Below are positions 39,164-60,789 of a DNA stretch of 64,000 nucleotides, in pieces. Both the position numbers and the translations under genes were made by a program. The stretch's first letter is position 1; every line of letters starts with the position of its first letter. The notes under the pieces were generated by a model. The model searched no databases and was not told the DNA's origin. It saw only the letters and a list, made by a program, of their open reading frames with translations. This DNA comes from Myxococcus stipitatus (GTDB taxonomy: Bacteria > Myxococcota > Myxococcia > Myxococcales > Myxococcaceae): the NCBI RefSeq assembly GCF_037414475.1, contig NZ_CP147913.1:8628501-8692500 (forward strand). The letters are read 5' to 3'.

Positions 39164-39239
<76 letters not shown>

Positions 39240-39249
39240 CCAAAGTCAG

Positions 39250-39289
39250 AGGCCCGGAAGCTATCTCGCTTCCGGGCCTTTGTCTTTTT
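39250..39289 (+). terminator. Rho-independent terminator after tRNA-Thr
   Basis: AGGCCCGGAAGC and GCTTCCGGGCCT form a 12-bp perfect stem with a six-base loop, followed by TTGTCTTTTT. It lies 10 bases after the tRNA 3' end. Confidence 0.88.
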
Positions 39290-39302
39290 GGGGGCACGTC
39301 TC

Positions 39303-39596
39303 ATGGCCGATTCGAAGGCTGCAGTGTCCGTGAAGCTTGCTCGCTACCTGGATGCCGAGGGGCGGCTGAAGAGCTGGCCGTCCAAGCGCTCCGTCCAACT
39401 CGAGGCCTTGCGCTACCTGGCGGGCCGCCTGCCGACTGGGGTGGAGTGGAGCGAGCGCGAGCTGAATGAGCAGTTGAAGTCACTGGCGACCTTTGGCGAC
39501 TGGGCACTCCTTCGCAGGGACCTGTGCGATGCGCGCTGGCTGGACCGCTCTCCCGATGGGCGGAGGTACTGGCGGGTGCCTTCGTCTCCTGGCTGA
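39303..39596 (+). CDS. DUF2087-domain protein
   Basis: 97 aa from ATG 39303. LARYLDAEGRLKSWPSKRSV, QLEALRYLAGRLPTG, YSERELNEQL-like residues SERELNEQLKSLATFGDWAL and LRRDLCDARWLDRSPDGRRY match the DUF2087 domain, a small winged-helix-like module sometimes fused to ArsR regulators. The protein may bind nucleic acid or act as an anti-regulator. Its start lies 13 bases after the tRNA terminator. Confidence 0.82.
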   Translation: MADSKAAVSVKLARYLDAEGRLKSWPSKRSVQLEALRYLAGRLPTGVEWSERELNEQLKSLATFGDWALLRRDLCDARWLDRSPDGRRYWRVPSSPG

Positions 39597-39632
39597 GGAC
39601 GTGGCGCTGGACGGGGTCCTGGAGCTACGTCC

Positions 39633-40603
39633 TCAACGAAAGGTGCTCGGGGACGTTCCGAAGTACCGTCCCCAGGCCACGGACACCGCTTGAGAGCGGA
39701 CTGCCTGGGTCAGCGTTCGGCACACCCCCTCCAGTCCGCCCAGGCGCAGATACAGCATGGGGTTGTCGCGGAGCAGCGTCTTCGCGAGCTGTCCGGGTGT
39801 GGCCGGCCCTCCGAGCGCCAGCGCCGCACCGAGTGCCCTCTGCGCGGGTGACACTTCCTGGCGGCTCGCGTGCCGTGTGGATTCAGCGCGGTGAAGCGGC
39901 AGCCCGCGCAGCGCATGGGGGCTCTTGCTCAGCGGGTATGCGCTCGCGCTCTTGTACTGATTGAGCAGCACCCGGATGGAGTGGTTGCCCGCGTTGCCTC
40001 CGGCCCGGTGGACGGTCAGGACATGCAGGAGGAGCACATCCCCAGGCGAGGCCTCCACGGGCATTCCCCTGCCGGCGAGCCGCTCCTCGGCGATGAAGGC
40101 TGGACCCTCATGGTGCCACTCGCCCTGGAGATGGGAGCTTGGGACAACCCAGGTGGAGCCCCTGGCCGCGGTGGTCTCGTCCAGATAGGTCAGCGCCGTG
40201 ACCAGCCCTGGCGTTGTGTGGCGGTCATAGGTCCAGTCCTGATGCCAGGAACAGAAGTTGTGATGTCCAGGTGGTCTGATCCGGGCAAAGCCCATCTGGA
40301 AGTCGATATCGTGTCCCAAGCAGTCCGAGACGACCTCCAAGATGCGCCGGTCATGAGTTTGCTCCAGCCACCAGGGCCCTGCCAGCGGCGTGTTTGTCAC
40401 CAGCCAGATTCCTTGGGGGTTGTCGGGGCGGTACGTGCTGCAATGCTCCCGCTTGAACTCCATCCTGGCGTGGGTGGACGCAGGCTGCAGGAGCAAGCGA
40501 TTCAGCTCGATGCGAGCCGCCTCTACTTCCCGAGGGGGAGGAACCCTCGAAGCTCGAGGTATCCCTCGCGCTCGAAGCGCTCGATTTGAGCAGGGGACAG
40601 CAT
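39633..40603 (-). pseudogene. Phytanoyl-CoA dioxygenase-like tailoring enzyme, one-base frameshift near the 5' end
   Basis: From ATG 40603 (GGGGAGAG upstream) the frame reads MLSPAQIERFEREGYLELRG-FLP and then hits a stop at TAG about 26 codons in. One base missing from the C-run at 40534-40538 explains it: restoring it gives the family-typical GFLPPREVEAARIELNR and joins an open frame of 300 more residues to 39633. The body has Fe(II)/2-oxoglutarate ligands HxD (WHQDWTYDRH) and a distal His...Arg (HRAGGNAGNHSIRV). Residues about 245-300 (ALALGGPATPGQLAKTLLRD, NPMLYLRLGGLEGVCRTL) resemble the C-termini of the four neighbouring radical SAM enzymes. It is last in their operon, 24 bases after rSAM-1. 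It could be a sequencing error, -1 slippage or a real lesion; the protein would be a hydroxylase acting on the modified peptide. Confidence 0.78.
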
Positions 40604-40627
40604 CACTTCTCTCCCCAGCGCGGTCGC

Positions 40628-42592
40628 CTATTCGACATCGGAGGTTCGCGGCCTGCCCACGACTCCCTTGAGTCTTGCCCTGGGTTGGACCGATGGACGG
40701 CTCTTGCCCTCGTGCAGCACCCAGAAGTCCTCCGACTCGGGGATGGCGAGGAACAGGTATTGGCCCGCCTCCGAGTAGAGCAGGTGCTCTCGGACGAGTG
40801 CCTCGACGAGCCGCCGGACGCCCTCCTTGCCTCCCATTCGGAGGTAGGCCTCGGGGTGGTGCGTCAGGAGCCGCTTGCCCGCGCGCTGGAGCGTCAGCGG
40901 CTCTTCGAAGGTCCGCAGGATGAGCCCGCTGAGCGGATCGAGAAGCCGCCTGCCTGCATTGGGAACGGGCCGGTGGTCGATGATCTGGAGATGCTCTCCG
41001 GGCAGCCTCGTCGCCGTGAAGATGGCCTTGGACCGTGCCCACTCGGCCACCCCTGCCCGCAGGCGTGCTCCGAGTGGCCCGTGTCTGGCGACACCAGGGG
41101 CCTCGAAGTCCAGGTCGAAGCAGAGCTCCTCTATCTCCGCATCCGGCAAATCCCACACGAAGCGATACCCGGGGAGCGGCCCCTTGATGTGGACCTGATG
41201 CTTGTCCGGGTGATTGAAGTAGGGGCTGAACCGCTCCAGGCTGAACTCGACGACGTCTGGCCAGGTCAGGTGGAAGAACCAGGGCAAGCGCGACAGCAGG
41301 GCTTCGTACCACTCGGCCCTCTCCCCTGGCAGACCATGCAGCATGTTCCAGTACACGTTGATTCCCAACTCGCGTGTCCGGCGCAGGAAGCAGAGGTTGA
41401 TGATAGGGGTGGTGCCCTTCTTCACCATCTCCAGCACCTCTGGTACCAGGCTCTCCAGGCCAGGTTGGAGGTGGATGATGCCACCCCGTGCCAGGCCACT
41501 CATCTGCGCCCGGGTCATTACCGCACGGACCTCGAAGAAGAGCTCCACGCCGGAGAGTCGTTGCTCGAGCTGCCGGGGCAGGGAGACGAGGTGCCTGGGG
41601 TCGATGATGTTGTCTGTTGCAACGAAGAGCGCGGTCTGGTGCTGCTCGCGCTGGGTCTTCAGCTCCTGGACGACCGCCTCCACGGGGCGGGCGCGCTGTC
41701 GGGTGACTTCGCCGTTGAGCCCGCAGAACAGACAGTGGCTCTGGACGGCCCACCAGCACCCCCGCGAGGCCTCGAATGGCAGCCGGACCTCGATGCCTGG
41801 CGCGAAGCGTCTGTGCTGGAGTTGATCGAAGTAATCCTGATAGGTCGGCAATGGGTAGTCGTCGAGCTCGGCCACGGGCTGGGGCGGACGGCGGGTGCAG
41901 GTGCCGTGCGCATCCCGCCAGAGCAAGCCGGGAATCTCCGTGGGGTCCTCATCTCGCAGCAGCGCCTGGACGAGCGGGGCGATGGTAAGATCCGCCTCTC
42001 CGTCAACGACGCCGTCCACGAAGATGAAGTTCCTGTGCAGTGCGCGCCCCATCGGCCCCGAGCAACCCGCTCCGCCGAAGAGGACCTTGAGGTGCGGGTG
42101 GCGCTCCTTCAGCAATCGCGCGAGCGCCAGGGAAGCGACTGGCTGGAGCATCGTCGTGGAGAATCCGACGACACGCACGTGTGCCCAGTCGACCGCCTCG
42201 AGCACCCACTCGATGAAGTTTGGCACCACGTCCTTGAGCCGCCGAATCTCCGCGAGCTGCTCGGCGCTGCACCCCTGCTTCGTGGCGAACGCATAGAACT
42301 GGCTCGTGGATGTCCTTCCGGTGTGTTCATCACCGTCACGCCCGGGGAAGAGCAAGGTTGAGAAGAGCCAGTCCGCGATGAAGTTATGGAATGAGCTGTA
42401 TTCCTCGTAGGTGGGAAGGCCGAGCCGTTCAGCGAACTCAAGGTTCGCGTACAGCCCGCGCGCTGCGATGCCTGCGCGCTCAAGCCTCGCGCACAGGATG
42501 CCAAGCTGCAGGGAGGGTTGCCGGACGGAGGCCCAGGGCATGGCCACCATCACCACCGGCGAGGCCCACCTCTCCGCGCGAGACGGGCTCAT
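40628..42592 (-). CDS. B12-binding radical SAM RiPP C-methyltransferase-type enzyme 1
   Basis: 654 aa. N-terminal Rossmann-like cobalamin domain (about 12-210: VVMVAMPWASVRQPSLQLGI, VVGFSTTMLQPVASLALARL, FGGAGCSGPMG), radical SAM core with Cys279, Cys287, Cys290 in GCWWAVQSHCLFCGLNG (CX7CX2C, the pattern of the TIGR03975 'RiPP maturation radical SAM protein 1' family), then LQPGLESLVPEVL and NVYWNMLHGLPGER. The last ~80 residues hold the ILRTFEEPLTL/AYLRMGGKEGV element shared in this locus. The family is expected to methylate unactivated carbons of peptide substrates. Start overlaps the stop of enzyme 2 by ATGA, so strongly coupled. Confidence 0.9.
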   Translation of the reverse strand: MSPSRAERWASPVVMVAMPWASVRQPSLQLGILCARLERAGIAARGLYANLEFAERLGLPTYEEYSSFHNFIADWLFSTLLFPGRDGDEHTGRTSTSQFYAFATKQGCSAEQLAEIRRLKDVVPNFIEWVLEAVDWAHVRVVGFSTTMLQPVASLALARLLKERHPHLKVLFGGAGCSGPMGRALHRNFIFVDGVVDGEADLTIAPLVQALLRDEDPTEIPGLLWRDAHGTCTRRPPQPVAELDDYPLPTYQDYFDQLQHRRFAPGIEVRLPFEASRGCWWAVQSHCLFCGLNGEVTRQRARPVEAVVQELKTQREQHQTALFVATDNIIDPRHLVSLPRQLEQRLSGVELFFEVRAVMTRAQMSGLARGGIIHLQPGLESLVPEVLEMVKKGTTPIINLCFLRRTRELGINVYWNMLHGLPGERAEWYEALLSRLPWFFHLTWPDVVEFSLERFSPYFNHPDKHQVHIKGPLPGYRFVWDLPDAEIEELCFDLDFEAPGVARHGPLGARLRAGVAEWARSKAIFTATRLPGEHLQIIDHRPVPNAGRRLLDPLSGLILRTFEEPLTLQRAGKRLLTHHPEAYLRMGGKEGVRRLVEALVREHLLYSEAGQYLFLAIPESEDFWVLHEGKSRPSVQPRARLKGVVGRPRTSDVE

Positions 42593-44526
42593 CCCAGAGC
42601 CTCCGCTGAGTCCCGGGCTTCGCCTGGAGCACCCTGGTGGTTCAAGGCGAGAGGGTTGCTCCCAGGGCGGAGCCAGAATCCTTTCTGCTTGGGAATCGCG
42701 AGTGCGACGAAGGTCCCCTCTTCACGCCAGACCAGGCCCTTGCGGTAGAAGCTGGCGACTCGGGCCCGGATGCCCCGCGCCCCTCCCAGGCCCAGGTAGG
42801 CTCGTGGCGAATCATCCAGTATCCGCTGCGCGAGCACCCCCAGGTCGATGGTCCGCTCGAGGTTCCGGTAGAGCAGTGTGTCCAGGGGCGCAAGTTCGTA
42901 TGTGCTCATCTGGGGATGGCGACCGTCTTCAATCCGTGCTCGTTCGCCCCGCAGCTCCACCGTCAGCGAGGCCGCTGGATGGAAGGACTCCCACCGCCGC
43001 ACCGCCTCGGATAGGAGTTGCGCCACCGGTCTGGGATCGTACCCATCCAGATACTCGAACTCGAAGTTCATCGCGATGTCGTCAAGGAGCTCTGGGGCCA
43101 CGGGATATGCGAACTGGAGTCCCTCCTGGGGACGCGTAATCCTGATTCCAAACCGGCCGGGCTCCGAGTGATATGGACTGAATCGCGCCAGGGTCAGCGG
43201 CAGAGGGTTGGGGGGGCGCAGATGGTAGAGGGCGGGGAAGTGGCGGAGCACTGGCTCATAGTGTTCGAACCGTTCGCCAGGAATCCCGAACAACATGTTC
43301 CACAGCAGATGGATGCCCAGCTCCTGCGCCCGCCGCAGGAGGCAGACGTTGTCGATGCCCCGCAGGCGTTTGTTCATGGCATGCAGAACGGGGGTGATGA
43401 GGCTCTCGATGCCGGGCTGGCTGTGAAAGGTGACGCTGGCGGCCAATGGCTCGAGCAACTCCCGGGGCACCGCGGGTGTCATCTCATAGAAGAGCGCTGC
43501 GTCCGGCAGCTGTTCCTCCAGCAGTGGAGGCAGCTCGCGGAAGAATCGCTGAGGGATGATTTCGTCTACGGCCACGAAGGTGCTCACTCCGTGGCGCTGC
43601 CGCTGCTCCGCCAACTCGCTCACGATCTGCTGTGCGCCGCGCGAGCGGTAGGTCATCGTCTGTCCATTGAGGCCGCAGAACGCGCAGTGTCGTCGCTCGC
43701 CCCACCAGCACCCGCGCGAGCCCTCGAAGGGAACCGAGCGTGGCAGGATGGCGCCCAGGCTGGATGCGTCGAGCTGCTGAAAGTAGTCAGAGAAGTCAGG
43801 GGTGGGGTTGCTCGCCAGCGCGTGGAATGTGGGAGCCCGCTCGTTGACGATCACCGCTTCGCCCTGACGACAGATGATGCCCTTCAGATCCTCGACGCCA
43901 CGGCCAGACAGCAGCCGCCGGAAGAGCTCTCCGACCCAGGCATCACACTCCTCGCGCACCATCACATCGACCGCGGGCAGGGCACGCATGAGCGCGGGAC
44001 CCATGACGCCCTGGCAGGGGGCTCCTCCGAAGACGATGCGGATATCGGGCCTTGCGGCACGGAGCATCCGGGCCAGCGCCGCAGCCGGCAGGGTCTGGAG
44101 CATCGCCGTCGTGAACCCCACCACCCGCGGAGCGGCTTCGAGCACGTACTCGAGACACTGTTCCAGGAACGGACGCACCGCGCGCCTCATGGTGAGGAGC
44201 TGGGCCAGGTGGTCCGTCGGGACGCCGCGTGTCCGCAGGTCGTGGAGATAGGCCCCTGCTGCTGAGTCATCTTGTCCGAACGCGGCCTGGGTGAATACCC
44301 ACTCACAACTCGGGCGGTGGAAGTCGTCCGCTGCCCGGTAGAGCGCGGGGCCGAGCAGCTCGGCGTACCAGAGTGTCGGATAGAAGGAACGGACTCGGAT
44401 GGCTTCCCGGGCCAGCAGGGCCTGGAGCAGACCGAGCTGCATCGACGGGCGATGAAACTCAGCCCACGGCATGTCGATGAGGAGGACCTCGGCTGGCTCC
44501 GGTCTGATCCCGGAGCGCCGGCTCAT
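42589..44526 (-). CDS. B12-binding radical SAM RiPP C-methyltransferase-type enzyme 2
   Basis: 645 aa. Cobalamin domain (LIDMPWAEFHRPSMQLGLLQ, VVGFTTAMLQTLPAAALA, FGGAPCQGVMG); cluster ligands Cys273, Cys281, Cys284 in GCWWGERRHCAFCGLNGQ; downstream FHSQPGIESLITPVLH and HLLWNMLFGIPGE. The C-terminal element is LLYRNLERTIDLGVLAQRIL with SPRAYLGLGGARGIR and VALAIP. ATGA overlaps at both ends tie it to enzymes 1 and 3. It differs clearly from its three paralogues over most of its length, so it probably targets another residue or position. Confidence 0.9.
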   Translation of the reverse strand: MSRRSGIRPEPAEVLLIDMPWAEFHRPSMQLGLLQALLAREAIRVRSFYPTLWYAELLGPALYRAADDFHRPSCEWVFTQAAFGQDDSAAGAYLHDLRTRGVPTDHLAQLLTMRRAVRPFLEQCLEYVLEAAPRVVGFTTAMLQTLPAAALARMLRAARPDIRIVFGGAPCQGVMGPALMRALPAVDVMVREECDAWVGELFRRLLSGRGVEDLKGIICRQGEAVIVNERAPTFHALASNPTPDFSDYFQQLDASSLGAILPRSVPFEGSRGCWWGERRHCAFCGLNGQTMTYRSRGAQQIVSELAEQRQRHGVSTFVAVDEIIPQRFFRELPPLLEEQLPDAALFYEMTPAVPRELLEPLAASVTFHSQPGIESLITPVLHAMNKRLRGIDNVCLLRRAQELGIHLLWNMLFGIPGERFEHYEPVLRHFPALYHLRPPNPLPLTLARFSPYHSEPGRFGIRITRPQEGLQFAYPVAPELLDDIAMNFEFEYLDGYDPRPVAQLLSEAVRRWESFHPAASLTVELRGERARIEDGRHPQMSTYELAPLDTLLYRNLERTIDLGVLAQRILDDSPRAYLGLGGARGIRARVASFYRKGLVWREEGTFVALAIPKQKGFWLRPGSNPLALNHQGAPGEARDSAEALG

Positions 44527-46430
44527 GCCGTCACCCGAAGCTGTTCCGGCTCTGCGGCCATCATTCGGGGGGGCATCTCCAGCCAGAATGCCTCGTCGTC
44601 AGGGACGGCCAGGGCCACCAGCTTCTCTCCCTCACGGAAGAAGAGGTGCGCGGCCTCCAGACGCTCCAGCACCGCGTGCGTGTTTCCTCGCAGGTGCAGG
44701 TACGCCTGCGGCGAGATGCGCAGCAGGGCCTTTCCAAGCTGTTCGGCTGTCTGGGGCGACTCGCCGAGGCGGTAGAGCAGGCTGGCGATGGGGTCCAACC
44801 GGTAGGTCCGTTCGATGCCGCTGCGCGTGTCTGTGAGGAAGACCTCTTCTCCTTGGAGCGTCGCCCTGAGTTGCGCCAACCCGCTCCGGGAGCGCTCCTG
44901 CCAGCGGCTGACCATGTGGGTGAGGAGGAGGGCGGTCTGCTCGGGCTCGTACCCGTCGAGGTAACGGAACTTGAAGTAGTAGGCCAGCTCGTCGAGGTCT
45001 TCGTCCTTGAAGCCGTAGATGTACTTGTAGTCGTCGAGTGCCCCTGTCACCTCGATGCCGTTCTTCTCGGGCTGGGAGTGGTAGGGCGCATAGCGTTGGA
45101 GGCTGAGGGGGAACGCAACGTCTGGCGGCGGTAGATGGTGCAGCCAGGGGTCGATCCTCGGCTGCAATTCCTGGTAGTGCACCAGCTTCTCGCCGGGGAA
45201 CGCATAGAGATAGTTCCAGAGCGGGACGATGCCGAACTCGCTGCAGCGGCGCAGGAACCGGACGTTGTGGATGCCTGTGGCCCCCTTGCCCATGCTCTTC
45301 AGGATGGGCGTGGAGAGGTTCTCCAGCCCCGCCTCGAGCTCGCGGATCCCGGCGCGTGCCATGCATCGCATCTGCTGTCGTGAGACGTCCGCGCGGATAT
45401 CGTAGAAGACCTGGATGTTGGGGACCTTGGCCTCCATCGCGGCGGTCAGCTTGTCGATGGCGCGCTTGTCCAGGATGTTGTCGGCCGCGGCGAAGTTGCT
45501 GATGCCATGGCGTTCCTTGAGGGTGTGGAGCTCATGGACGATCTGCTCCACGGACTTGGAGCGGTAGAGCATTCCCTGCCCGTTGAGCGCGCAGAACTTG
45601 CAGTGGCTGCGCTCGCCCCACCAGCAGCCGCGTGAGGACTCGAACATGACGAGCACCTCGGTCGTCTCGCGCATGGGCAGCCGGGCGAGCTGCTCGAAGT
45701 AGTCTCCATATTCAGGCACAGGGTTCTTGGTGAGGTCCTTTACCAGCGCGGCGGGAGGGCCGACCACGGACCTTTCTTCCTGGCGGTAGCAGAGCCCCGG
45801 CAACCCCTCGAGCGGCGCGTTCAGCAAGAGGCGTCGGAACAGTTCGTGGACGATGTCATCCACCTCCCCGCGCACCACCACGTCCACCTGCGGAAAGAGG
45901 CGATGGAGTGTCTGCCCCATGCTCCCCTCGCAGTTGGCACCGCCAAAGACAATCGTGATGTGCGGGTAGCGCTGCTTGATGAGCAGGGCCAGTCGGAGCG
46001 AGGCGACCGTCTGCATCATCGACGTGGTGAAGCCCACCACCCGGTACGATTCCCAGGGGACGAGTTCGAGGCATCGCTCGAAGAACTTCGGGCTGGCCGC
46101 GCACAGCTCCTGCCACAGGGCCAGCTCGGAAGTCCCGGCGCCCCTCGATGCGAGATAGGTCAGGTATCCCTCCTGGGCGGGAGTCTCCGTGAGCCTCTCG
46201 GCGAAGACCCACTCGGAGGCCATCACGTTGCGGTTCTTGGTGGCCTCGTAGGTCTCGGGACTCACCAGGTCGGCCAGCAGCAGGTTGAAGTAGGCCACGT
46301 CGGCCTGGATGCCGACCTGCGCGAGCTGGGCCTTGATCAACCCGAGCGCCAGTGAAGGTTGGGAGGTGCTTGCCCACGGCATGCATGCCAGCAGGATTTG
46401 AGCTCCAGGGGAGGCTTTCAGCAACGGCAT
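44523..46430 (-). CDS. B12-binding radical SAM RiPP C-methyltransferase-type enzyme 3
   Basis: 635 aa. Cobalamin domain (LLACMPWASTSQPSLALGLI, VVGFTTSMMQTVASLRLALL, FGGANCEGSMG); cluster ligands Cys269, Cys277, Cys280 in GCWWGERSHCKFCALNGQG; LEAGLENLSTPILKSMGKG and VPLWNYLYAFPGEKL follow. C-terminal element: SLLYRLGESPQTAEQLGKAL, SPQAYLHLRGNTHAVL, VALAVP. It starts 11 bases after the stop of enzyme 4 and overlaps enzyme 2 by four bases. Confidence 0.9.
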   Translation of the reverse strand: MPLLKASPGAQILLACMPWASTSQPSLALGLIKAQLAQVGIQADVAYFNLLLADLVSPETYEATKNRNVMASEWVFAERLTETPAQEGYLTYLASRGAGTSELALWQELCAASPKFFERCLELVPWESYRVVGFTTSMMQTVASLRLALLIKQRYPHITIVFGGANCEGSMGQTLHRLFPQVDVVVRGEVDDIVHELFRRLLLNAPLEGLPGLCYRQEERSVVGPPAALVKDLTKNPVPEYGDYFEQLARLPMRETTEVLVMFESSRGCWWGERSHCKFCALNGQGMLYRSKSVEQIVHELHTLKERHGISNFAAADNILDKRAIDKLTAAMEAKVPNIQVFYDIRADVSRQQMRCMARAGIRELEAGLENLSTPILKSMGKGATGIHNVRFLRRCSEFGIVPLWNYLYAFPGEKLVHYQELQPRIDPWLHHLPPPDVAFPLSLQRYAPYHSQPEKNGIEVTGALDDYKYIYGFKDEDLDELAYYFKFRYLDGYEPEQTALLLTHMVSRWQERSRSGLAQLRATLQGEEVFLTDTRSGIERTYRLDPIASLLYRLGESPQTAEQLGKALLRISPQAYLHLRGNTHAVLERLEAAHLFFREGEKLVALAVPDDEAFWLEMPPRMMAAEPEQLRVTA

Positions 46431-46441
46431 GTCAGGCTCCG

Positions 46442-48391
46442 CTAGCGGTACAGGTGGTCGACCTTCCAGTGCAGCAGGCTGGGCTTGGGGCGGCCATCGC
46501 CCGCGGTGGCGGGCAGGGCTTCGGCGAGGCTGGGCTGGCCGTCGAGGTACCAGAAGGCATCAGGGGCCTCGGGGATGGAGAGCGCGACATCCTGCTCCCC
46601 TTCCGTGAAGACCAGCCGCGCCGCGCGCAGTTGTTGGAGGATCTCCCGCACCCCACGCACGCCCCCCTCGCGCAGGTAGTCCGCGGGGCACCGGGCCGCC
46701 AGAAGTGGCGCGGCGGCCTCGGGCTTGCGAGGGCGCTCAAGCACCCGGTACAGGTGGGCGGCCAGTCCCGTCAGCCGGTGTGTCTGGCGCTTGCCAAATC
46801 GATCATCCGAGATGATGACGTCCCGCCCCTCCACCGCTGCTTTCAACGACACCTGCCGCACGTAGTAGGCGTGGTTCCAGGCCTTTGTGGTGGAGAGCAC
46901 CAGGTCGCCGACCGCTGCGGGCTCATAGCCATCCAGGTAGTCGTACTCGAAGTAGTACGCCAGGCGGGAGACCTGCTCGGGCTCCAGCTTGAAGATGTAT
47001 TGGTAATGCGGCAGGGGCCCCCGGATGCGGACGCCCATGGCCTGTGGCTTGTTGAAGTACTCGCTGAAGCGCATCATGCTCAGCCCGAAGCCGACGTAGG
47101 GGGCTGGCAGATGGAAGAGCCCCGGGTTGGCGAACTCCATCAGGCTTGTGTAGTCCGAGAGGCGCTCGCCAGGGAACCCGTACAAGTAGTTCCACATGGG
47201 CCAGATACCGACCTCCGCGAACATTCGCAGGACGTGGACGTTGCGGATGCCGGTGATGCCCTTCTGCATCAGTTTCAAGACGTGTGTTGAGAAGGACTCG
47301 ATGCCTGGTTGGACTTCATCGATCCCGGCGCGCTTCATGGCGACGAGTTGCTTGCGTGTGAGATTCGACTTCACGTCGAAGAAGATCTTCGCGTTGGGGA
47401 TCCGCTCCTCGATGGCGCGACACAGCTCGGACTGGGAGCGGTGGTCCAGGATGTTGTCCGCGGCGCCGAACCAGCTCACTCCGTGACGCTCGGCCAGGTG
47501 GGCCAGCTCATCCACCAGCCGCGCCGGAGACTTGGCCCGGTACTCCATGGAGCTGCCATTGACCGCGCAGAAGGTGCAGGGAATCTTCTGGCCATACCAG
47601 CAGCCCCGCGAGCCCTCGAATACGATGTTGACGCGGACGTCCTTCGCGTAGGGCATGTGTTGAAGCTGCTCGAAGTAGTCGCCGTAGTCTGGGAAGGGAT
47701 TGCGATCCAGATCGTGGAAAATAGGTGGCATCTCCGCGATGTGTACGGCCCCTTGCTCCCGGTAGCAGACTGGGAGTCCCTGAAGGGAGCGTCCCTCTCT
47801 CAGACGTGAGAACAGCTCCCCCACGAGTCCGTCGCAGTCCCGGCGTGCGACGACGTCGATGAACTCGAAGTTCTCGAGCATGGCCACACCCATCTCGCCT
47901 TCGCAGTTGGCTCCACCGAAGACGATGCGCAGCTCAGGGTTGAGCGCCTTCGCGCGCCGTGCCAGTGCCAACGAGGCAAGTGATTGTACCATGGTGGTGG
48001 TGAAGCCCACGACGCGATAGCGCTTCCAGTCGATCCTCTGAGCGCATTGCTCGATGAAAGGAGCCGCGGCGGCCTGCACTCGGGCCCACCGTTGCAGCTC
48101 TTCTGCGGGGTAGCCGCGCCGTGCCAGGAAGCCCAAGAACTCAGAAGGTTTTCGGAAGGCGCCGAACGCCGCCTCCGCGAAGATCCAATCGCAGGCCAGG
48201 ACGTCGCGGTCCTTGAGTGAGCGGTAGTTCTCCAAGCCAACGGCTGTCGCGAACTCCAAGTTGCAATAGCGGACGTCCGCGCCCATTCCCTCGCGTGCGA
48301 GCAGGGCCTTGATCAGGCCGAAGGCAAGGCTTGGCTGCTCGAGGGAGCCCCAAGGTAGACTGACCAGGAGGATGTCGTTGGCGTTGGACAT
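46442..48391 (-). CDS. B12-binding radical SAM RiPP C-methyltransferase-type enzyme 4 (first after the precursor)
   Basis: 649 aa from ATG 48391, 11 bases after the precursor stop, so on the same transcript with no terminator between. Cobalamin domain (LLVSLPWGSLEQPSLAFGLI, VVGFTTTMVQSLASLALA, FGGANCEGEMG); cluster ligands Cys264, Cys272, Cys275 in GCWYGQKIPCTFCAVNGSS; VQPGIESFSTHVLKLMQKG and WPMWNYLYGFPGERL follow. C-terminal element: HLYRVLERPRKPEAAAPLLA, CPADYLREGGVRGVREIL, VALSIP. Tyr replaces Trp and Pro replaces His in the cluster loop, so it is the most divergent of the four there. Confidence 0.9.
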   Translation of the reverse strand: MSNANDILLVSLPWGSLEQPSLAFGLIKALLAREGMGADVRYCNLEFATAVGLENYRSLKDRDVLACDWIFAEAAFGAFRKPSEFLGFLARRGYPAEELQRWARVQAAAAPFIEQCAQRIDWKRYRVVGFTTTMVQSLASLALARRAKALNPELRIVFGGANCEGEMGVAMLENFEFIDVVARRDCDGLVGELFSRLREGRSLQGLPVCYREQGAVHIAEMPPIFHDLDRNPFPDYGDYFEQLQHMPYAKDVRVNIVFEGSRGCWYGQKIPCTFCAVNGSSMEYRAKSPARLVDELAHLAERHGVSWFGAADNILDHRSQSELCRAIEERIPNAKIFFDVKSNLTRKQLVAMKRAGIDEVQPGIESFSTHVLKLMQKGITGIRNVHVLRMFAEVGIWPMWNYLYGFPGERLSDYTSLMEFANPGLFHLPAPYVGFGLSMMRFSEYFNKPQAMGVRIRGPLPHYQYIFKLEPEQVSRLAYYFEYDYLDGYEPAAVGDLVLSTTKAWNHAYYVRQVSLKAAVEGRDVIISDDRFGKRQTHRLTGLAAHLYRVLERPRKPEAAAPLLAARCPADYLREGGVRGVREILQQLRAARLVFTEGEQDVALSIPEAPDAFWYLDGQPSLAEALPATAGDGRPKPSLLHWKVDHLYR

Positions 48392-48402
48392 GGCCGATGC
48401 GC

Positions 48403-48936
48403 CTAGGACTCGCCCTTGCTCCAGTCGCCATAGAAAGTGAGTGCTGAACGCGCAGGGCCCGCCATGGTGGAGCCCGCCGCGTACTTGGACATGGCCGAAC
48501 CGGCGGCGTACTTGGACATGGCAGAGCCCGCCGCGTACTTGGACATGGCCGAACCAGCGGCGTACTTGGACATGGCAGAGCCCGCCGCGTACTTGGACAT
48601 GGCCGAACCGCCGCCCGCTGGCGCGGCCTGCTCGGCAGTGGCCTCCGGCCCCATGACCTGGACGGGGACAGTCGGCGCGGAGCCGATGTAGATGTGGACG
48701 ACGGGGCCTGACTGCACGATGGGAACCGTCTGGGGCGGTACGCCCTCGCCCCCCGACTCGCAGCCCGAGAAGCTCTCCGCCGCTGACTCGACGAAACCCT
48801 GGGCCTCCGCATCAAGGATTGTGCTCTCCACCTTGTCAGGCGCTACCTTGTACCGAGCCAGGTCCTCCCGGCTGATATGGTAGATGGAGCCGTCTGGCGC
48901 GGTGAATAGGACTCCTTGCTTCTTGGTCTCGGCCAT
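48403..48936 (-). CDS. Candidate RiPP precursor with five 9-residue core repeats
   Basis: 177 aa from ATG 48936 with GAGGG 7 bases upstream; the ORF could open at 48948 but has no ribosome site. Residues 1-110 form a long leader-like part: KKQGVLFTAPDGSIYHISRE, DLARYKVAPDKVEST, and a hydrophobic stretch VVHIYIGSAPTVPVQVM. Residues 111-155 are SAMSKYAAG five times without a single amino-acid change. The tail is STMAGPARSALTFYG plus DWSKGES. The only Cys is residue 59 in the leader, so lanthionines, thioether crosslinks and disulfides in the core are excluded. The role as substrate of the four downstream radical SAM enzymes is inferred from gene order and repeat form; no homologous precursor is recognised. 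Confidence 0.8.
   Translation of the reverse strand: MAETKKQGVLFTAPDGSIYHISREDLARYKVAPDKVESTILDAEAQGFVESAAESFSGCESGGEGVPPQTVPIVQSGPVVHIYIGSAPTVPVQVMGPEATAEQAAPAGGGSAMSKYAAGSAMSKYAAGSAMSKYAAGSAMSKYAAGSAMSKYAAGSTMAGPARSALTFYGDWSKGES
48472..48606 (-). repeat. Five tandem 27-bp repeats encoding SAMSKYAAG
   Basis: Exactly 5 x 27 bases. Codon use alternates A-B-A-B-A: units written GGT TCG GCC and units written GGC TCT GCC before ATG TCC AAG TAC. This implies expansion by a 54-base (two-unit) step. All differences are synonymous, which points to selection on the peptide. Confidence 0.95.
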
Positions 48937-49055
48937 GGATGCCCTCATTCACTGAGTGTGTGTTCTTGTTCACTCCATGATAGGTTGCCTTCATGCTGAG
49001 ATGCAATGCCTTACGATGTCTGGGATGGTGAGTGAACAGGGGAGCGAGCGCACGA
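48937..49055. promoter_or_regulatory. Divergent promoter region with perfect inverted repeat
   Basis: Minus strand (precursor operon): TTGCAT (49001-49006), 18-base spacer, TATCAT (48977-48982). Plus strand (GNAT): TTCATG (48990-48995), 16-base spacer, TACGAT (49012-49017). Each promoter is followed by one arm of a perfect inverted repeat: TGTTCACTC (48967-48975) and GAGTGAACA (49030-49038). Arm centres are 63 bases apart, close to six helical turns. This would suit one regulator acting on both start sites. All of it is pattern-based. Confidence 0.45.
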
Positions 49056-49970
49056 ATGTCCAGGATTCAGTGCAAACGTCTGTCGGTGCAGGAGTTGGAA
49101 GGTGTGTTTGCATTTGTGGGAGACCATCCCTCTTGGGGGATGAGCGCGAATGATGTGCGTCGGATCATGACCAGCCTGGTGCGTGGGTTGGATGCGGTGC
49201 TGGACCTGCATGACGAGGCGGGTCGTCTACTGGTGGCTGCTGTCGTGGACACCTGCGTCAACGTGGATGACAGCGCGGACCTGGCCATCCTGGGGATTCG
49301 GGAGCAGCCAATGACTCCAGCGGGGCTCCAGGTCTTGTTCGAGAATGCGGAGGAAGTCACCCGGCGGGGGCCCAGAGGCTTCCTGGACATCACCTTGACT
49401 TCCGAGCGGAGTCACTGGGAGCCAGCGCTGCGTGAGCGTGGTTACGAGCGTGCGTATTCACAGTACCTGATGGAGCGTCCGGGTGATGTCCTACTTCCGC
49501 GGCTCAGCGGGCTCTTGCCGGAGGGATGGCATTGGATGGACGCAGAGGATGACCAGCTCGCTGACTATCACCGCGTCGTCTCGGAGGCTTTCTCGAAGGT
49601 ACCCGGTGCGTTCGTGCCGCCATTGGAGGAGATGGTGGGGGCGTTGAGGCGCGGCGGCCGACGTCCGAGGGTCTTGTCCGAGGGGCGGCGCGTCCGTGGC
49701 TTCGCGACCGTTCGAGTGCATGAGCGGGCAAGCGGTGCGGTCGGTGAGGTGAGAAGCATCGGGCGAGAACCCGCCCTGCGAGGTGCTGGGTTGGGAGAAC
49801 ATGCGCTTCAGCAGGCGCTCACGCTCCTCCAACAGGAGGCCCCCATCGCGAAGTTCGAACTGGAAGTGGCGGCGCGCAACGAGGCGGCGCTCAAGCTGTA
49901 CCAGCGGCACGGCTTCCGAATCGTCCAGACCATGCCGGTCTTCCGGCGCGACCTGTCACGAACTGGCTGA
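49056..49970 (+). CDS. GNAT-family N-acetyltransferase
   Basis: 304 aa from ATG 49056. It has two GNAT-like halves. The C-terminal one carries the acetyl-CoA loop (VRSIGREPALRGAGLGEHAL) and the closing RNEAALKLYQRHGFRIVQTMP. The N-terminal half (residues ~1-140) has the fold's length but a degenerate CoA loop, as in other double-GNAT enzymes. It is divergent from the precursor operon and followed 50 bases later by a hydroxylase gene. It might acetylate the peptide (Lys in each repeat, or the N-terminus) or provide self-protection. Membership of the pathway is inferred from location. Confidence 0.85.
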   Translation: MSRIQCKRLSVQELEGVFAFVGDHPSWGMSANDVRRIMTSLVRGLDAVLDLHDEAGRLLVAAVVDTCVNVDDSADLAILGIREQPMTPAGLQVLFENAEEVTRRGPRGFLDITLTSERSHWEPALRERGYERAYSQYLMERPGDVLLPRLSGLLPEGWHWMDAEDDQLADYHRVVSEAFSKVPGAFVPPLEEMVGALRRGGRRPRVLSEGRRVRGFATVRVHERASGAVGEVRSIGREPALRGAGLGEHALQQALTLLQQEAPIAKFELEVAARNEAALKLYQRHGFRIVQTMPVFRRDLSRTG

Positions 49971-50020
49971 GGTCTTGCGAGCATCTCCCTGTTCTCCCGA
50001 GTCACCTGTCCGAGGAATCC

Positions 50021-50752
50021 ATGCAGAACTTTCCACGGGTCCACCGCGTGGCCGCCGAGATGGCGGTGGAGGCCATCCGAACAGGGCTGCCGGTCATCAT
50101 CGCTGGAGGTCTCGGAGCCTGGCCCGCGCTTTCGCACTGGAGCTTCGAGCGGCTGCTAAGAGACCATGGCGACTGGGTTGTTCCTGTCTCGGTATTCCGG
50201 CACGGCGCACTCTCGCCAGAGAAGGAGATGTGCCGCATCTCCGAATTGATTCCACGAATCCTCCCGTTCCCCTCCTGGCCTCTTTGTTATCTCCAGCAGG
50301 TTCCATTGGCGGAATGGCCACGTGCTCTTGCAGAGTGTATCGGTCCTCCACCAGGGCTCGCGCCTGGGACGCCGATGGATGCCTATCTCTGGTGTGGTCC
50401 ACACGGGGCTTCATCCCCGCTTCACTACGACACGCGTGACAATCTGCACGTGCTGCTGCGGGGGCATAAGCGATTCTTGCTCTTTGCGCCCGACCAGTCT
50501 CCGCTCATGTACCCTCACGCAGAGGACGGAGCGCAGCACCTCTCTCGTATTGACGTGGAGCGGGTGGACCGCCGTGCCTTCCCTCGGTTCGGGCGTGCCC
50601 GAGGGCTGCGATGTGTCCTCGGGCCTGGGGAGGTGCTCTACCTCCCGACGCGATGGTGGCACCAGGTCCATCTGTGGGCGCCATCCATCTCGGTCAACTT
50701 CTGGTGGACGAAGGAGCAAGGCGCCACACCCCAGGGCGAGCAACGCTCTTGA
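50021..50752 (+). CDS. Cupin-like (JmjC-type) Fe(II)/2-oxoglutarate hydroxylase
   Basis: 243 aa from ATG 50021. The Cupin_8/JmjC pattern is clear: LPVIIAGGLGAWPALSHWSF at the N-terminus, AYLWCGPHGASSPLHYDTRD (HxD), VLLRGHKRFLLFAPDQSPLM, GEVLYLPTRWWHQV (distal His) and SISVNFWW. These enzymes hydroxylate protein or peptide side chains (Asn, Asp, His, Lys, Arg). With the frameshifted phytanoyl-CoA-type enzyme it makes a second potential hydroxylase for the same peptide. It is last in the plus-strand arm of the RiPP locus. Confidence 0.85.
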   Translation: MQNFPRVHRVAAEMAVEAIRTGLPVIIAGGLGAWPALSHWSFERLLRDHGDWVVPVSVFRHGALSPEKEMCRISELIPRILPFPSWPLCYLQQVPLAEWPRALAECIGPPPGLAPGTPMDAYLWCGPHGASSPLHYDTRDNLHVLLRGHKRFLLFAPDQSPLMYPHAEDGAQHLSRIDVERVDRRAFPRFGRARGLRCVLGPGEVLYLPTRWWHQVHLWAPSISVNFWWTKEQGATPQGEQRS

Positions 50753-50834
50753 CGCCCAATCCGTGACGCTTGGGCATTGCGGCAGCCCTGTGCGGGCGAT
50801 GCCACTGCTTGTTTCGGGGATGCAGACCTCGGGC

Positions 50835-51974
50835 TCAGTAGCCTCGAAGTCGCGCGAATCGGTCGCGATGGAAAGCCCCGTCGCCGAACGTCATCGCCGC
50901 GACGCGGGCCCGCTTCAGGAACAGGCCGATGTCACACGCGTCGGTGACGCCCATTCCGCCGTGCAACTGGACCGCCTCGTTGGCCACGTGGAGGAACGTG
51001 TCCGATGCCTTGGCCTTGGTGGCGCTCGCCAGCAACGGCACGGTTGCCCTGTCTTCATCAAGGGCATGTTGTGCCTCCGTGACGATGGCCCGCGTGCGCG
51101 TCACTTCGCAGTGCAACCGCGCGGCCCGGTGCTTCAATGCCTGGAACGAGCCGATGGGCGCGCCAAACTGTCTGCGTGTCTTGAGTTGAGCGAGGGTTCG
51201 CTCGAAGACCTCCGAGAGGCTCCCGAGCATCTCCGCGCTGAGTGCCACCCGGGCCCGGTCGAGCAGCGGGTCCAGCACTTCGGCGCCCCGGTCGAGTGTG
51301 CCGAGGATGTCCCGAGGCGTCGCGAGCACGTCATCGAGGCGGACGCGTGCGGCGTTGCGGCTGTCCACGAGCAATGTACGTGTCACGTGGAGCCCGGAAG
51401 CTTGTGCTGGGACGAGGAAGAGCGTCAGTCCTTCTCTATCCCCCAGAGAGCCCGAGGTCCGTGACACCACGATGAAGGCATCCGCGATGTGTCCATCCAG
51501 GACCAGGACCTTTTCACCCTGAAGCCGGTATCCATCGGGCCCAAGGCTGGCGCGGGTCCCGACGTCATAGGGGGCATGACGAGAGCCTTCATCGTGCGCC
51601 AGGGACAGGAGCTTCTCGCCCGACGCGATGAGGGGCAGCCATTCCCGGAGCTGTGCGGGAGCGCCGCCCAGGATGAGGGCCGTGGTTCCGAGCACCCCCG
51701 TGGACATCATCGGGCTCGGGGCGAGGGTTCGTCCGCATTCCTCCAAGACAACCCCCAACTCCGTCCACCCGAGGCCCATGCCTCCGTGCCTGGATGGAAT
51801 CGTGATGCCAGCAAGTCCCAGGGCGGCGAGCTCTCGCCATACCTCGCGCGAGAGTCCATCCGAGGACCTGCCGTCACGCAGCTGCCTCAGGTGGGACAGA
51901 GGCATCCGCTCGCGCATGAATCGTCGAGCTGTCTCCCGGAGGGACTCCTGTTCCGTTGTTTCGAGGAGTCCCAT
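50835..51974 (-). CDS. Acyl-CoA dehydrogenase family protein, pair A small subunit
   Basis: 379 aa. ACAD fold: SREVWRELAALGLAGITIPS, GGMGLGWTELGVVLEE, EGSRHAPYD, TRRQFGAPIGSFQALKHRAA and AVQLHGGMGVTDACDIGLF. The usual C-terminal catalytic 'YEGT-S-E' element is not present (the end reads FGDGAFHRDRFARLRGY). It starts 8 bases after the stop of the longer ACAD at 51983. Such pairs resemble the heteromeric alpha-beta acyl-CoA dehydrogenases of actinobacterial steroid catabolism, where catalytic and FAD-binding residues are split between subunits. Pairing is inferred. Confidence 0.85.
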   Translation of the reverse strand: MGLLETTEQESLRETARRFMRERMPLSHLRQLRDGRSSDGLSREVWRELAALGLAGITIPSRHGGMGLGWTELGVVLEECGRTLAPSPMMSTGVLGTTALILGGAPAQLREWLPLIASGEKLLSLAHDEGSRHAPYDVGTRASLGPDGYRLQGEKVLVLDGHIADAFIVVSRTSGSLGDREGLTLFLVPAQASGLHVTRTLLVDSRNAARVRLDDVLATPRDILGTLDRGAEVLDPLLDRARVALSAEMLGSLSEVFERTLAQLKTRRQFGAPIGSFQALKHRAARLHCEVTRTRAIVTEAQHALDEDRATVPLLASATKAKASDTFLHVANEAVQLHGGMGVTDACDIGLFLKRARVAAMTFGDGAFHRDRFARLRGY

Positions 51975-51982
51975 GGTCGGTG

Positions 51983-53182
51983 TCAGTCCGGAAGGCCAAG
52001 GACACGCTTGGCGATGATGTTGAGGTGGATTTCGCTCGTGCCGCCCTCGATGGAGTGGGCTCGTGAGCGAAGCCAGTCGCGAGTGATGCGAAGCTCCTCA
52101 GCGGAAAACCCCGGACCTTCCCATCCCAACCCTTGGAAGCCCGCGAGCTCGACCTTCAGCTCACGCCAGCGCTGCCGGAGCTCCATCGCCTGGAGCTTGA
52201 GCACGGAGCTCTCCGGCCCCAGGGCGTGGCCGGCCTCCATGGACTCGACCGCCAGTCGCACCGCGCTGGCGTTGCAGAGGCGGTCCATGTCCACTTGCGC
52301 CATCCGGTCCCGCTGGACGGCGTCGCGCAGCGGTCCAGGTTCATCGCCGAGATACCGGCGAGCCAGCACCGCCAGCGGCTCCTCTCGTGTGAAGTCGGCA
52401 TCACCGAGCCGGGATATCCACGCACGCTCGTGTTCGAGCAGGCTCATGGCGATCTTCCATCCCTGGCCCGGCTGCCCCACGAGGTTCTCCGCGGGGACTC
52501 GGACGTCGTCGAAGAACGTCTCGCAGAATGGAGATTCGCCGCTGATGAGGCGGATGGGGCGGATGTCCACACCAGGGCTGGACAAGTCCACCAGGAGGAA
52601 CCCAAGCCCTTCATGCCGAGCCGACTCCGCACCCGTCCGCACCAGACAGAACATCCAATCGGAGACGGCGGCGTGCGACGTCCAGGTCTTCTGCCCGGAG
52701 ACGATGTAATGGTCTCCGTCGAGCACGGCGCGAGTCCTCACTCCCGCCAGATCCGAGCCTGCCTCTGGCTCACTGTATCCCTGACACCAGCGCAAGGCGC
52801 CCCGAGCAATCGGAGGCAGATGTCTGCGTTTCTGCGCCTCACTGCCAAAGCGCAGCAGCACGGGGCCCAGCATCCACAATCCCAGACTGTGTAGGGGAGG
52901 GCGGCAGCCCAGGTGCCGCAGCTCTTCCTCGAGGATGTTGGCCTGAGCCGGAGACAGCCCCGCGCCGCCGCACTCCACGGGCCAGGTGGGCGCGGTGAAC
53001 CCCCGCGAAGCCATTCGCTCCAACCACAGCCGCGAGTCTGGATGCTTGAAGACAGCGCGCGTGCCACCCCAGACCTCGTCCTCTTCGCCCGCCATGGGCA
53101 TCCGCATCGCGGGCGGGCAGTTCTCCTCCAGCCAGTGGCGCAGGTGCTGGCGGAGGTGCCCGTCCGGTTCCGCGATCCTCAT
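51983..53182 (-). CDS. Acyl-CoA dehydrogenase family protein, pair A large subunit
   Basis: 399 aa from ATG 53182, which overlaps the amidohydrolase stop by four bases. GYSEPEAGSDLAGVRTRAV (FAD/substrate contacts), IVSGQKTWTSHA, and the C-terminal HSIEGGTSEIHLNIIAKRVL are typical of mycobacterial FadE-like enzymes. The N-terminal ENCPPAMRMPMAGEEDEVWGG also fits that group. It oxidises an acyl-CoA to the 2,3-enoyl-CoA. Co-transcribed with P450, amidohydrolase and its smaller partner. Confidence 0.88.
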   Translation of the reverse strand: MRIAEPDGHLRQHLRHWLEENCPPAMRMPMAGEEDEVWGGTRAVFKHPDSRLWLERMASRGFTAPTWPVECGGAGLSPAQANILEEELRHLGCRPPLHSLGLWMLGPVLLRFGSEAQKRRHLPPIARGALRWCQGYSEPEAGSDLAGVRTRAVLDGDHYIVSGQKTWTSHAAVSDWMFCLVRTGAESARHEGLGFLLVDLSSPGVDIRPIRLISGESPFCETFFDDVRVPAENLVGQPGQGWKIAMSLLEHERAWISRLGDADFTREEPLAVLARRYLGDEPGPLRDAVQRDRMAQVDMDRLCNASAVRLAVESMEAGHALGPESSVLKLQAMELRQRWRELKVELAGFQGLGWEGPGFSAEELRITRDWLRSRAHSIEGGTSEIHLNIIAKRVLGLPD

Positions 53183-53988
53183 GCCCTGCCCTCGAAGAAG
53201 AGGCGGTGCGCGTTCGCGTACAGGTATCGGTCCAGCACACCCTCTCGAAGGTCCAACTCCTGCGCCTCGCGCAGACACCGCTCCAGGGGGAGCACCGGGT
53301 GATTGCTCGCGTAGAGGACCTTGTCCCGGCCCCGAGTGTTCATGAAGTGGATGAGCTCCGCGGGCAGGTACGCGGGCGCGAAGGCGGAGGTCATCAAGTA
53401 GAGGTTGGGGTATTTGATCATCAGGCGGATGGCCACCGCCCACCACGGGTCCGCCCCGTGGGCCATGATGAGCTTGAGCTCGGGGAAGAAGAAGCACACC
53501 TCGTCCAGGTTCATGGGGTCCTGGCATCTCCCCGGCATCGGTGGCCCCGGGATGCCCGTGTTGACGGAGATGGGCAGCCCCAGGTCGATGCAGCGCGTGT
53601 AGAGCGGATAGTAGGCCCGGTCGTCGGCAGGCAGGCCGATCATGAAGGGCACTGCGCGCACGAGCACGAGCGGGCTGTTTCGCGCGAGCTGTTCCACCTC
53701 CCTCAGCGCGGCCATTCCCCGTCGAGGGTCGACGTAGGCGGAGATCGCGAAGCGTTCAGGATGCGCCTCCGCGAACGCGAGCACCTCTCGCTGCGGCGCC
53801 TCGGCGTCGACGGTGAGGATGGCCTTCTGGACGCCGGAGCGTTCCATCAGAGCGAGCAGCTCCGCCTGGGAGATGTCGCGGAAGATGTGCTCGGCGCGCT
53901 TGAAGTAGTCCTCGGCGACGCGGACGAGAAAGTCCGGGCGCTGGGTCGACCCCATGTTCACGCTCACCCACGCATCGATTGCTCGCAC
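53179..53988 (-). CDS. Amidohydrolase-2 family protein
   Basis: 269 aa from GTG 53988, with GGGAGGG 6-8 bases upstream; it overlaps the P450 3' end by 25 bases. The start AIDAWVSVNMG and LMERSGVQKAILTVD, ERFAISAYVDPRRG, LKLIMAHGADPWW, LYLMTSAFAPAYLP and KVLYASNHPVLPLERCL match the TIM-barrel amidohydrolase_2/ACMSD-like group of decarboxylases and hydrolases. The N-terminal HxH of some members is absent. Frequently found with acyl-CoA catabolism genes in actinobacteria and myxobacteria. Reaction unknown. Confidence 0.8.
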   Translation of the reverse strand: MRAIDAWVSVNMGSTQRPDFLVRVAEDYFKRAEHIFRDISQAELLALMERSGVQKAILTVDAEAPQREVLAFAEAHPERFAISAYVDPRRGMAALREVEQLARNSPLVLVRAVPFMIGLPADDRAYYPLYTRCIDLGLPISVNTGIPGPPMPGRCQDPMNLDEVCFFFPELKLIMAHGADPWWAVAIRLMIKYPNLYLMTSAFAPAYLPAELIHFMNTRGRDKVLYASNHPVLPLERCLREAQELDLREGVLDRYLYANAHRLFFEGRA

Positions 53989-55241
53989 GCGGTCCCTCCC
54001 TGACTCTCGCGAGCGCCATCCCGAGGCCGGCTGCTGGGCGGACGGCGCACCGGCATGGCGCGGATGGCATTGACCAGCTTGGAGCGTCGGCGCTCCACGA
54101 GACCCGCGAGCTCCAGCCCGTCGAGTCGCTTGAGCAACTGCTCGAACATCACGCGAATCTCCAACCGCGCCAGACTCGCGCCCAGGCAGTAGTGCTGGCC
54201 GATGCCAAAGGCGATGTGCTCGTTCGGGAATCGGGAGATGTCGAAGCGGTTCGGATTCTCGAACACCGCCTCGTCCCGATTGGCGGAAGGGTAGAACAGC
54301 ACCACCTTGTCGCCTTCTCGCAGCTGCTGCCCGCGCAGCACGGTGTCTCGAGTGACGGTGCGGCGGAAGCACACCACGGGAGACACCCAGCGGAGCATCT
54401 CCTCCACGGCGGTGGGGAGCAGCGCCGGATTGGCGCGCAGCCGCTCCAGCTCTTCCGGGTGCTCCATCAGCGCCAGCATCCCGCCGGAGATGAGGTTCCG
54501 GGTCGTCTCGTTCCCGGCGACGATGAGCAAGAGGAAGAAGGCGTCGAACTCCGCCTCGCTGAGCCGCTCGCCGTCCACTTCCGCCTGCATCAGGACAGAC
54601 ACCAGGTCCTTGCCCTCACGTCCCTTGTTCCTCGCCGCGAGCTCATTGGCGTATTGCCACATCTCCATGGCGGCCATCTTGGCGTCGTCGAACGACCTGG
54701 CCCTCCCCGAGTCGTCATAGTCGATGAGCCGGTTGGACCAGCCGAAGAGCAGGTGCCGCTCCTCGTGAGGGATTCCCACGAGCTCGGCAATCACCTGGAG
54801 CGGCAGCTCCGCGGCGACACGTGTCACGAAGTCGAACTCCCGCTCATGGACCACCTTGTCGATGATTTCCTGGGTGACTGCCCGAATACGGGGTTCCAGG
54901 TAATTGATGGCCACGGGGGTGAAACCCGCGCTGACCAGCCGGCGGTATTTCACGTGCTGGGGCGGGTCCATGTTCAACATCATGAACCGGATGAGGGAGA
55001 GGTCTTCCGGTGAGTAGTCTTCGATGGAGGTTCCCCCTCGGAATGACGAGAAGCCCGCCGGGTCCCTCGAGATGGCGATGATGTCCTCATGGCGCGTGAT
55101 GGCCCAGAACCCAGGACCGCCGTCGGGCTCTCCGTGGAAGTAGACAGGGGCGTCACGGCGCAAGTGTTCAAAAGTCTCGTGAGGAATAGCCCTGCCGTAC
55201 GTGATTGGGCTTGCGAGGTCGGCGAGCTCTGATTTGTGCAT
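53964..55241 (-). CDS. Cytochrome P450
   Basis: 425 aa from ATG 55241; an in-frame TTG lies at 55277. Haem ligand Cys352 in FGIGQHYCLGASLARLE; I-helix oxygen-binding motif AGNETTRN; ExxR motif in EEMLRWVSPV context preceded by typical K helix; PANEDEAVF-like meander SANRDEAVFENPNRFDI. Bacterial class I, needs a ferredoxin and reductase that are not encoded nearby. Members near acyl-CoA catabolism genes often oxidise a terminal methyl group of a sterol or terpenoid side chain. First gene of the minus-strand operon, divergent from the enoyl-CoA hydratase. Confidence 0.93.
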   Translation of the reverse strand: MHKSELADLASPITYGRAIPHETFEHLRRDAPVYFHGEPDGGPGFWAITRHEDIIAISRDPAGFSSFRGGTSIEDYSPEDLSLIRFMMLNMDPPQHVKYRRLVSAGFTPVAINYLEPRIRAVTQEIIDKVVHEREFDFVTRVAAELPLQVIAELVGIPHEERHLLFGWSNRLIDYDDSGRARSFDDAKMAAMEMWQYANELAARNKGREGKDLVSVLMQAEVDGERLSEAEFDAFFLLLIVAGNETTRNLISGGMLALMEHPEELERLRANPALLPTAVEEMLRWVSPVVCFRRTVTRDTVLRGQQLREGDKVVLFYPSANRDEAVFENPNRFDISRFPNEHIAFGIGQHYCLGASLARLEIRVMFEQLLKRLDGLELAGLVERRRSKLVNAIRAMPVRRPPSSRPRDGARESQGGTACEQSMRG

Positions 55242-55337
55242 GTATTGAACAGAGCATGGCCCTGTCGGCAGTCGCAAGGCGTCGGGTGAGTGTTATGTGA
55301 AGACCTGTTGTGCTTTCGGCAGAGGAGGCGCTCGAAG

Positions 55338-56135: not shown

Positions 56136-56137
56136 CC

Positions 56138-56887: not shown

Positions 56888-56972
56888 CGCGCGCTGCCAC
56901 GCGTGCGTGAAGAGCAGGCGGGGTGGTCCATGGCGCGAAGGTGGTGAGCAAAGGCTGCGTGAACGCATAGCC

Positions 56973-60786: not shown

Positions 60787-60789
60787 GGG

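Follow-up and report, generated by a model that had tools for sequence, protein, structure and literature searches.

A gene for a protein with five perfect SAMSKYAAG units was found directly upstream of four tandem B12-radical SAM enzymes in Myxococcus stipitatus, within a 64,000-nucleotide stretch of DNA referred to here as the window (Table 1). As far as can be judged from sequence, the product of the locus is very probably a modified peptide of a type that has not been described before. The repeat gene is, on balance, best explained as a RiPP precursor whose units would be C-methylated by leader-docked radical SAM enzymes (rSAMs), hydroxylated by one or more oxygenases and perhaps acylated by a GNAT acetyltransferase, with the units staying together as one chain. 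The arrangement is that of a RiPP system, with a ribosomal leader and core precursor beside modifying enzymes in one operon. The gene order, the repeat, the enzyme families and their cysteine motif were read directly at the locus, and the RRE-like fold of rSAM A was predicted.

Table 1. Features of the repeat-precursor locus and its surroundings (positions in the window)
Feature	Position	Strand	Basis
tRNA-Thr(CGT), left edge of block	39164..39239	+	tRNA call
Species-specific block	39289..50833	.	homology to three sister species ends 39288, restarts 50834
PhyH-type Fe/2OG oxygenase, C-terminus like helical half of rSAM RRE; start codon uncertain	39633..40538	-	Pfam, HMM
rSAM D, TIGR03975; 4-base overlap between its start and the stop of C	40628..42592	-	profile, tree
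rSAM C, TIGR03975; 4-base overlap between its start and the stop of B	42589..44526	-	profile
rSAM B, TIGR03975, 44% identical to A	44523..46430	-	profile, alignment
rSAM A, TIGR03975 with CX7CX2C; C-terminal RRE predicted at about residues 514-605	46442..48391	-	profile, motif, AF2
Precursor gene (177 aa) with leader 1-110, core 111-155 and tail 156-177	48403..48936	-	sequence reading
Core array of five SAMSKYAAG units in alternating codon versions (A-B-A-B-A)	48472..48606	-	unit-by-unit reading, Tandem Repeats Finder
Leader, 110 aa; GVLFTAPDGSIYHI is the proposed RRE-bound strand	48607..48936	-	sequence, inference from predicted RRE
GNAT acetyltransferase, divergent from operon; possible core or N-terminal acyltransferase	49032..49970	+	profiles
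Cupin_8/JmjC-type Fe/2OG hydroxylase, divergent from operon	50021..50752	+	profile

Precursor gene and repeat array

The first-pass annotation had described five perfect repeats alternating between two codon versions and a leader of about 110 residues, and direct reading of the gene gave the same picture. The units (48580-48606, 48553-48579, 48526-48552, 48499-48525 and 48472-48498, in order) follow one another without gaps. The DNA of units 1, 3 and 5 is the same throughout; units 2 and 4 depart from it at four sites, every one synonymous, and from each other at a single synonymous position (GCT/GCC). Four random substitutions per unit would all be silent with a probability of about 0.002, and the restriction of inter-unit differences to silent ones fits selection on the peptide. 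Tandem Repeats Finder favoured a period of 54 (95% matches, score 275) over one of 27 (84%, score 213), so growth of the array by 54-base, two-unit steps with the amino acids kept, as had been proposed, is well supported. The 22-residue tail STMAGPARSALTFYGDWSKGES does not form a sixth unit.

Codon-usage scoring favoured coding on the precursor strand. The sequence GAGGG lies just 5' of the ATG at 48936, and a second in-frame ATG at 48948 would extend the precursor by MRAS. The core is free of cysteine, the residue sought in lanthipeptide and sactipeptide cores, and the leader has one (residue 59); the earlier argument that a cysteine-free core rules out thioether chemistry agrees with the B12-radical SAM C-methyltransferase-type enzymes alongside. 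The precursor matched nothing in Pfam or NCBIfam, even at E 1, and these profiles gave no sign of the nitrile-hydratase-like or Nif11 leader that marks a proteusin. The leader belongs to no known type.

Operon organisation and genomic setting

Gaps of 11 bases separate the precursor from rSAM A and A from B, and the B/C and C/D junctions overlap. The families to which its neighbours belong support the view that the gene encodes a precursor whose long leader precedes a core of repeats, set beside modification enzymes. No further small ORF in the operon scored well for coding in the codon-usage analysis, and neither a protease nor a transporter was recognised within the block from the ORF list, Pfam or NCBIfam. 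A DUF2087 ORF occupies the block's left end.

The block is about 11.5 kb long and its left edge lies 49 bases past the tRNA-Thr(CGT) gene. The three nearest sister species (G008, G014 and G013) were 95-96% identical to the window up to 39288 and 85% identical from 50834 on, and carry 4.3-5.0 kb of unrelated DNA in place of the block. GC content was 64.8% in the block versus 68.8% to its left, and no integrase was seen at the block. The vicinity of tRNA genes is a usual site of gene-block exchange, and this tRNA-Thr site may be an exchange hotspot.

Other features of the surroundings were also recorded. The tRNA-Thr neighbourhood in the sister species (middle segments of L209-L211) holds different genes, including one for a repeat protein of ~730 aa. 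Adjoining the block, the region 50835-61905 encodes acyl-CoA dehydrogenases, a P450, a KshA-type Rieske oxygenase, a flavin dehydrogenase and a nitronate monooxygenase, and looks like steroid catabolism. A 96-base tandem repeat present six times (88% matches) at 26539-27113 possibly encodes 32-aa protein repeats.

Four B12-radical SAM enzymes

The four enzymes each scored 505-568 bits against TIGR03975 (RiPP maturation radical SAM C-methyltransferase, rSAM_ocin_1), for which the cut-off is 282 bits, and each has a B12 domain and a radical SAM domain. The cysteines of the CX7CX2C motif (C264, C272 and C275 in A numbering) were invariant in A-D and 72 relatives in a 76-row alignment. This is the motif of PoyB/PoyC and the bottromycin C-methyltransferases (PMC11285071; PMC5682303), and by it A-D are of the PoyC type; PoyC acts on Val and Ile, and PoyB on Val and Met (PMC11285071). 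The profile of ApyD, an RRE-bearing B12-rSAM that converts Tyr to beta-methyl-Tyr (PMC11117315), scored on these enzymes far below TIGR03975. The AF2 model of A (pLDDT 92) matched TsrM, OxsB, TokK and CysS.

A, B, C and D formed one clade (support 100) with an Acidobacteriota enzyme (L096) and a Mesorhizobium enzyme (L099), separate from 70 other TIGR03975 enzymes in the tree. Within this clade A paired with B, and D grouped with the two outside enzymes, its closest relatives; the quartet is therefore an old duplication and not a recent burst. More than two TIGR03975-type enzymes in tandem were found nowhere else among 100 relatives or 79 collected loci, which are limited samples. The 79 loci were gathered by searching the genome collection with the four-enzyme alignment; rSAM A alone as query had given no matches there, and viral contigs yielded none. 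In several genomes of the genus (L083, L084, L085 and L088-L091) and in this genome (G000:C1:7110624), a TIGR03975 enzyme is flanked by a 930-aa protein on one side and a polyketide-synthase-like gene on the other.

Predicted leader recognition

The C-terminal domain of A is predicted to be an RRE. Residues 506-612 modelled alone reached a pLDDT of 92.8, and the best structural match was the TbiB1 RRE with bound lasso leader (Z 8.7, rmsd 2.9, 81/88 residues aligned), nearly equalled by winged-helix DNA-binding proteins (Z 8.4). PqqD matched weakly to A in Pfam (E 0.013) and NCBIfam and to B in Pfam, with the Pfam matches under the gathering score. The recognition element of a RiPP-modifying enzyme is thus present here as a predicted fold, and its likely occurrence on the enzyme adjoining the precursor would support the earlier suggestion of an N-terminal recognition segment in the leader.

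The C-terminus of the PhyH oxygenase showed a related signal. Its residues 218-259 scored 22 bits against a six-row HMM of the RRE domain, where 1000 shuffles gave a maximum of 5.4, and 39% identity to D was found across 49 residues (E 4e-5). The match to the full RRE profile was weak (hhalign probability 11%, E 0.0026), and none was obtained with the 76-row HMM. If the shared RRE half is real, the oxygenase may dock on the same leader as the rSAMs; alternatively, the segment may be a leftover of duplication from D.

Search for precursor relatives

Searches of the 100 relatives, of plasmids and of its own genome turned up no further copy or homologue of the precursor. Two extra matches among the 100 relatives were rejected, L002 being a Pro/Gly-rich repeat protein. 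The leader used as query against 195 genomes of the phylum gave no homologue, the best match (E 0.005) falling within a long unrelated frame. Motif and phmmer searches around other TIGR03975 genes returned noise only, and tandem-repeat matches at other loci were mostly out-of-frame GC-rich sequence. The suggestion that repeat number could vary by strain found no support, as these searches gave no precursor homologues and the entire block is missing from the three sister species.

A different precursor family was present in eight same-family genomes and consisted of MSKQTKYLLTVDSATGAAVKLERLGEAGDLTEVPLSTL, followed in most members by VVNIYLGG or a similar segment, and a tail of GPGGPG repeats. 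These KYLLTVD precursors (L174-L181, e.g. L086:6380-6835, minus strand) adjoin a single TIGR03975 gene wherever the neighbourhood was read, and no description of the family was found. Common to them and the window precursor are a strand-rich N-terminal leader, a VV-x-IY-x-G segment, a repeat-rich tail and a neighbouring TIGR03975 enzyme, the window precursor running from a strand-rich start through VVHIYIG to the repeats. The KYLLTVD family differs in its one enzyme, its collagen-like tail and the placement of its enzymes in another clade. Homology between the two was considered but not established (hhalign probability 0.5%; rank 52/2001 versus shuffles, not significant), and what the sequences suggest is a resemblance, with no kinship claimed. 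An ORF that resembles a precursor and ends in an Asn/Ala repeat was also seen alongside a TIGR03975 enzyme (L077:10735-11169), and a similar NANANAN stretch lies beside two such enzymes (L168:7231-7962).

Proposed maturation and alternative explanations

In the scheme we favour, a strand of the N-terminal leader around GVLFTAPDGSIYHI would dock on the predicted C-terminal RRE of the four PoyC-type enzymes, which would add C-methyl groups to chosen residues in each of the five units, with Ser, Ala, Met, Lys and Tyr as candidates. One or two Fe/2OG oxygenases would hydroxylate the chain, the GNAT possibly acylates Lys or the N-terminus, and a housekeeping protease would take off the leader, leaving the five units joined as one long modified peptide. 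We infer the docking and all later steps from domain content, and action of the enzymes on the precursor, the choice of residues and the single-chain product are likewise put forward as probable. Fe/2OG and JmjC-type oxygenases are known in rSAM RiPP clusters (TvgC, PMC9062424; BipG, PMC12707348). The GNAT found beside the D-type enzyme of L096 hints that the GNAT belongs to the system, although the GNAT and Cupin_8 genes are divergently transcribed and may lie outside it. Counted against this scheme is that no homologous precursor was found to show co-conservation of core and enzymes.

Within the same RiPP system, cleavage of the array might yield a modified nonapeptide in five copies, a release that the first-pass annotation had anticipated and that we regard as rather unlikely. 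The units are perfect copies, like those of multi-core precursors, and a host protease could cut inside them, for example after Lys or Gly. However, they are fused without spacer or recognition sequence and the block revealed neither a protease nor a transporter, leaving the release unsupported and leading us to favour one joined chain; TvgA, the precursor of a repeat-core rSAM RiPP, was modified as a joined multi-repeat substrate (PMC9062424). It is also unlikely, and we would put less weight on it, that one or more of the four enzymes cross-link residues, such as the Tyr of successive units, instead of methylating them. The B12-radical SAM enzyme BipD forms the biaryl bonds of biphenomycin in a cluster with the JmjC hydroxylase BipG (PMC12707348), each unit has one Tyr, and four enzymes per nine residues leave room for chemistry beyond methylation, but CX7CX2C and TIGR03975 are linked with C-methylation and ApyD, itself RRE-bearing and acting on Tyr, is a methylating enzyme.

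That the repeat ORF is an unrelated low-complexity or surface protein lying upstream by chance, with the enzymes using another substrate, seems highly improbable. It would explain why neither a family match nor relatives were found, but the ORF is on the same strand as rSAM A, 11 bases from it, and within the block absent from the sister species, RRE-bearing enzymes require a leader-bearing peptide, and among the other small ORFs of the operon none scores well as coding.

Under the favoured scheme of leader-docked C-methylation, four PoyC-type enzymes on an identical nine-residue unit would offer a natural experiment in the division of residues between B12-radical SAM enzymes, in which the site of each enzyme could be read from one short repeat. 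More tentatively, the locus could represent a class of RiPPs made by four specialised B12-radical methyltransferases that dock on one shared leader and act on each unit of a perfect repeat without gaps. The product would be a periodic chain, heavily C-methylated, whose length grows by DNA repeat expansion. Such a periodic chain would be an encoded C-methylated repeat polymer.

Comparison with known systems

The system shares with polytheonamide (PoyB/PoyC) and bottromycin biosynthesis the CX7CX2C type of B12-rSAM C-methyltransferase and the use of several methyltransferases per RiPP precursor. It differs from both in its four tandem enzymes and perfect nine-residue repeat core, and in lacking an NHLP (proteusin) leader, an epimerase and a dehydratase. 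The TVGG-repeat RiPP of Halomonas (TvgA/TvgB) likewise combines a repeat core, a radical SAM enzyme and an Fe/alpha-ketoglutarate oxidase, and TvgB works on joined repeats as is proposed here, but TvgB makes cyclopropylglycine, the Tvg cluster encodes a peptidase and transporters, and its motif and leader are different. The biphenomycin (BipD/BipG) and ApyD pathways are alike in applying B12-rSAMs to aromatic residues with RRE logic, and biphenomycin also in its JmjC-type hydroxylase, whereas both pathways, unlike the window system, use MNIO enzymes and a single short core.
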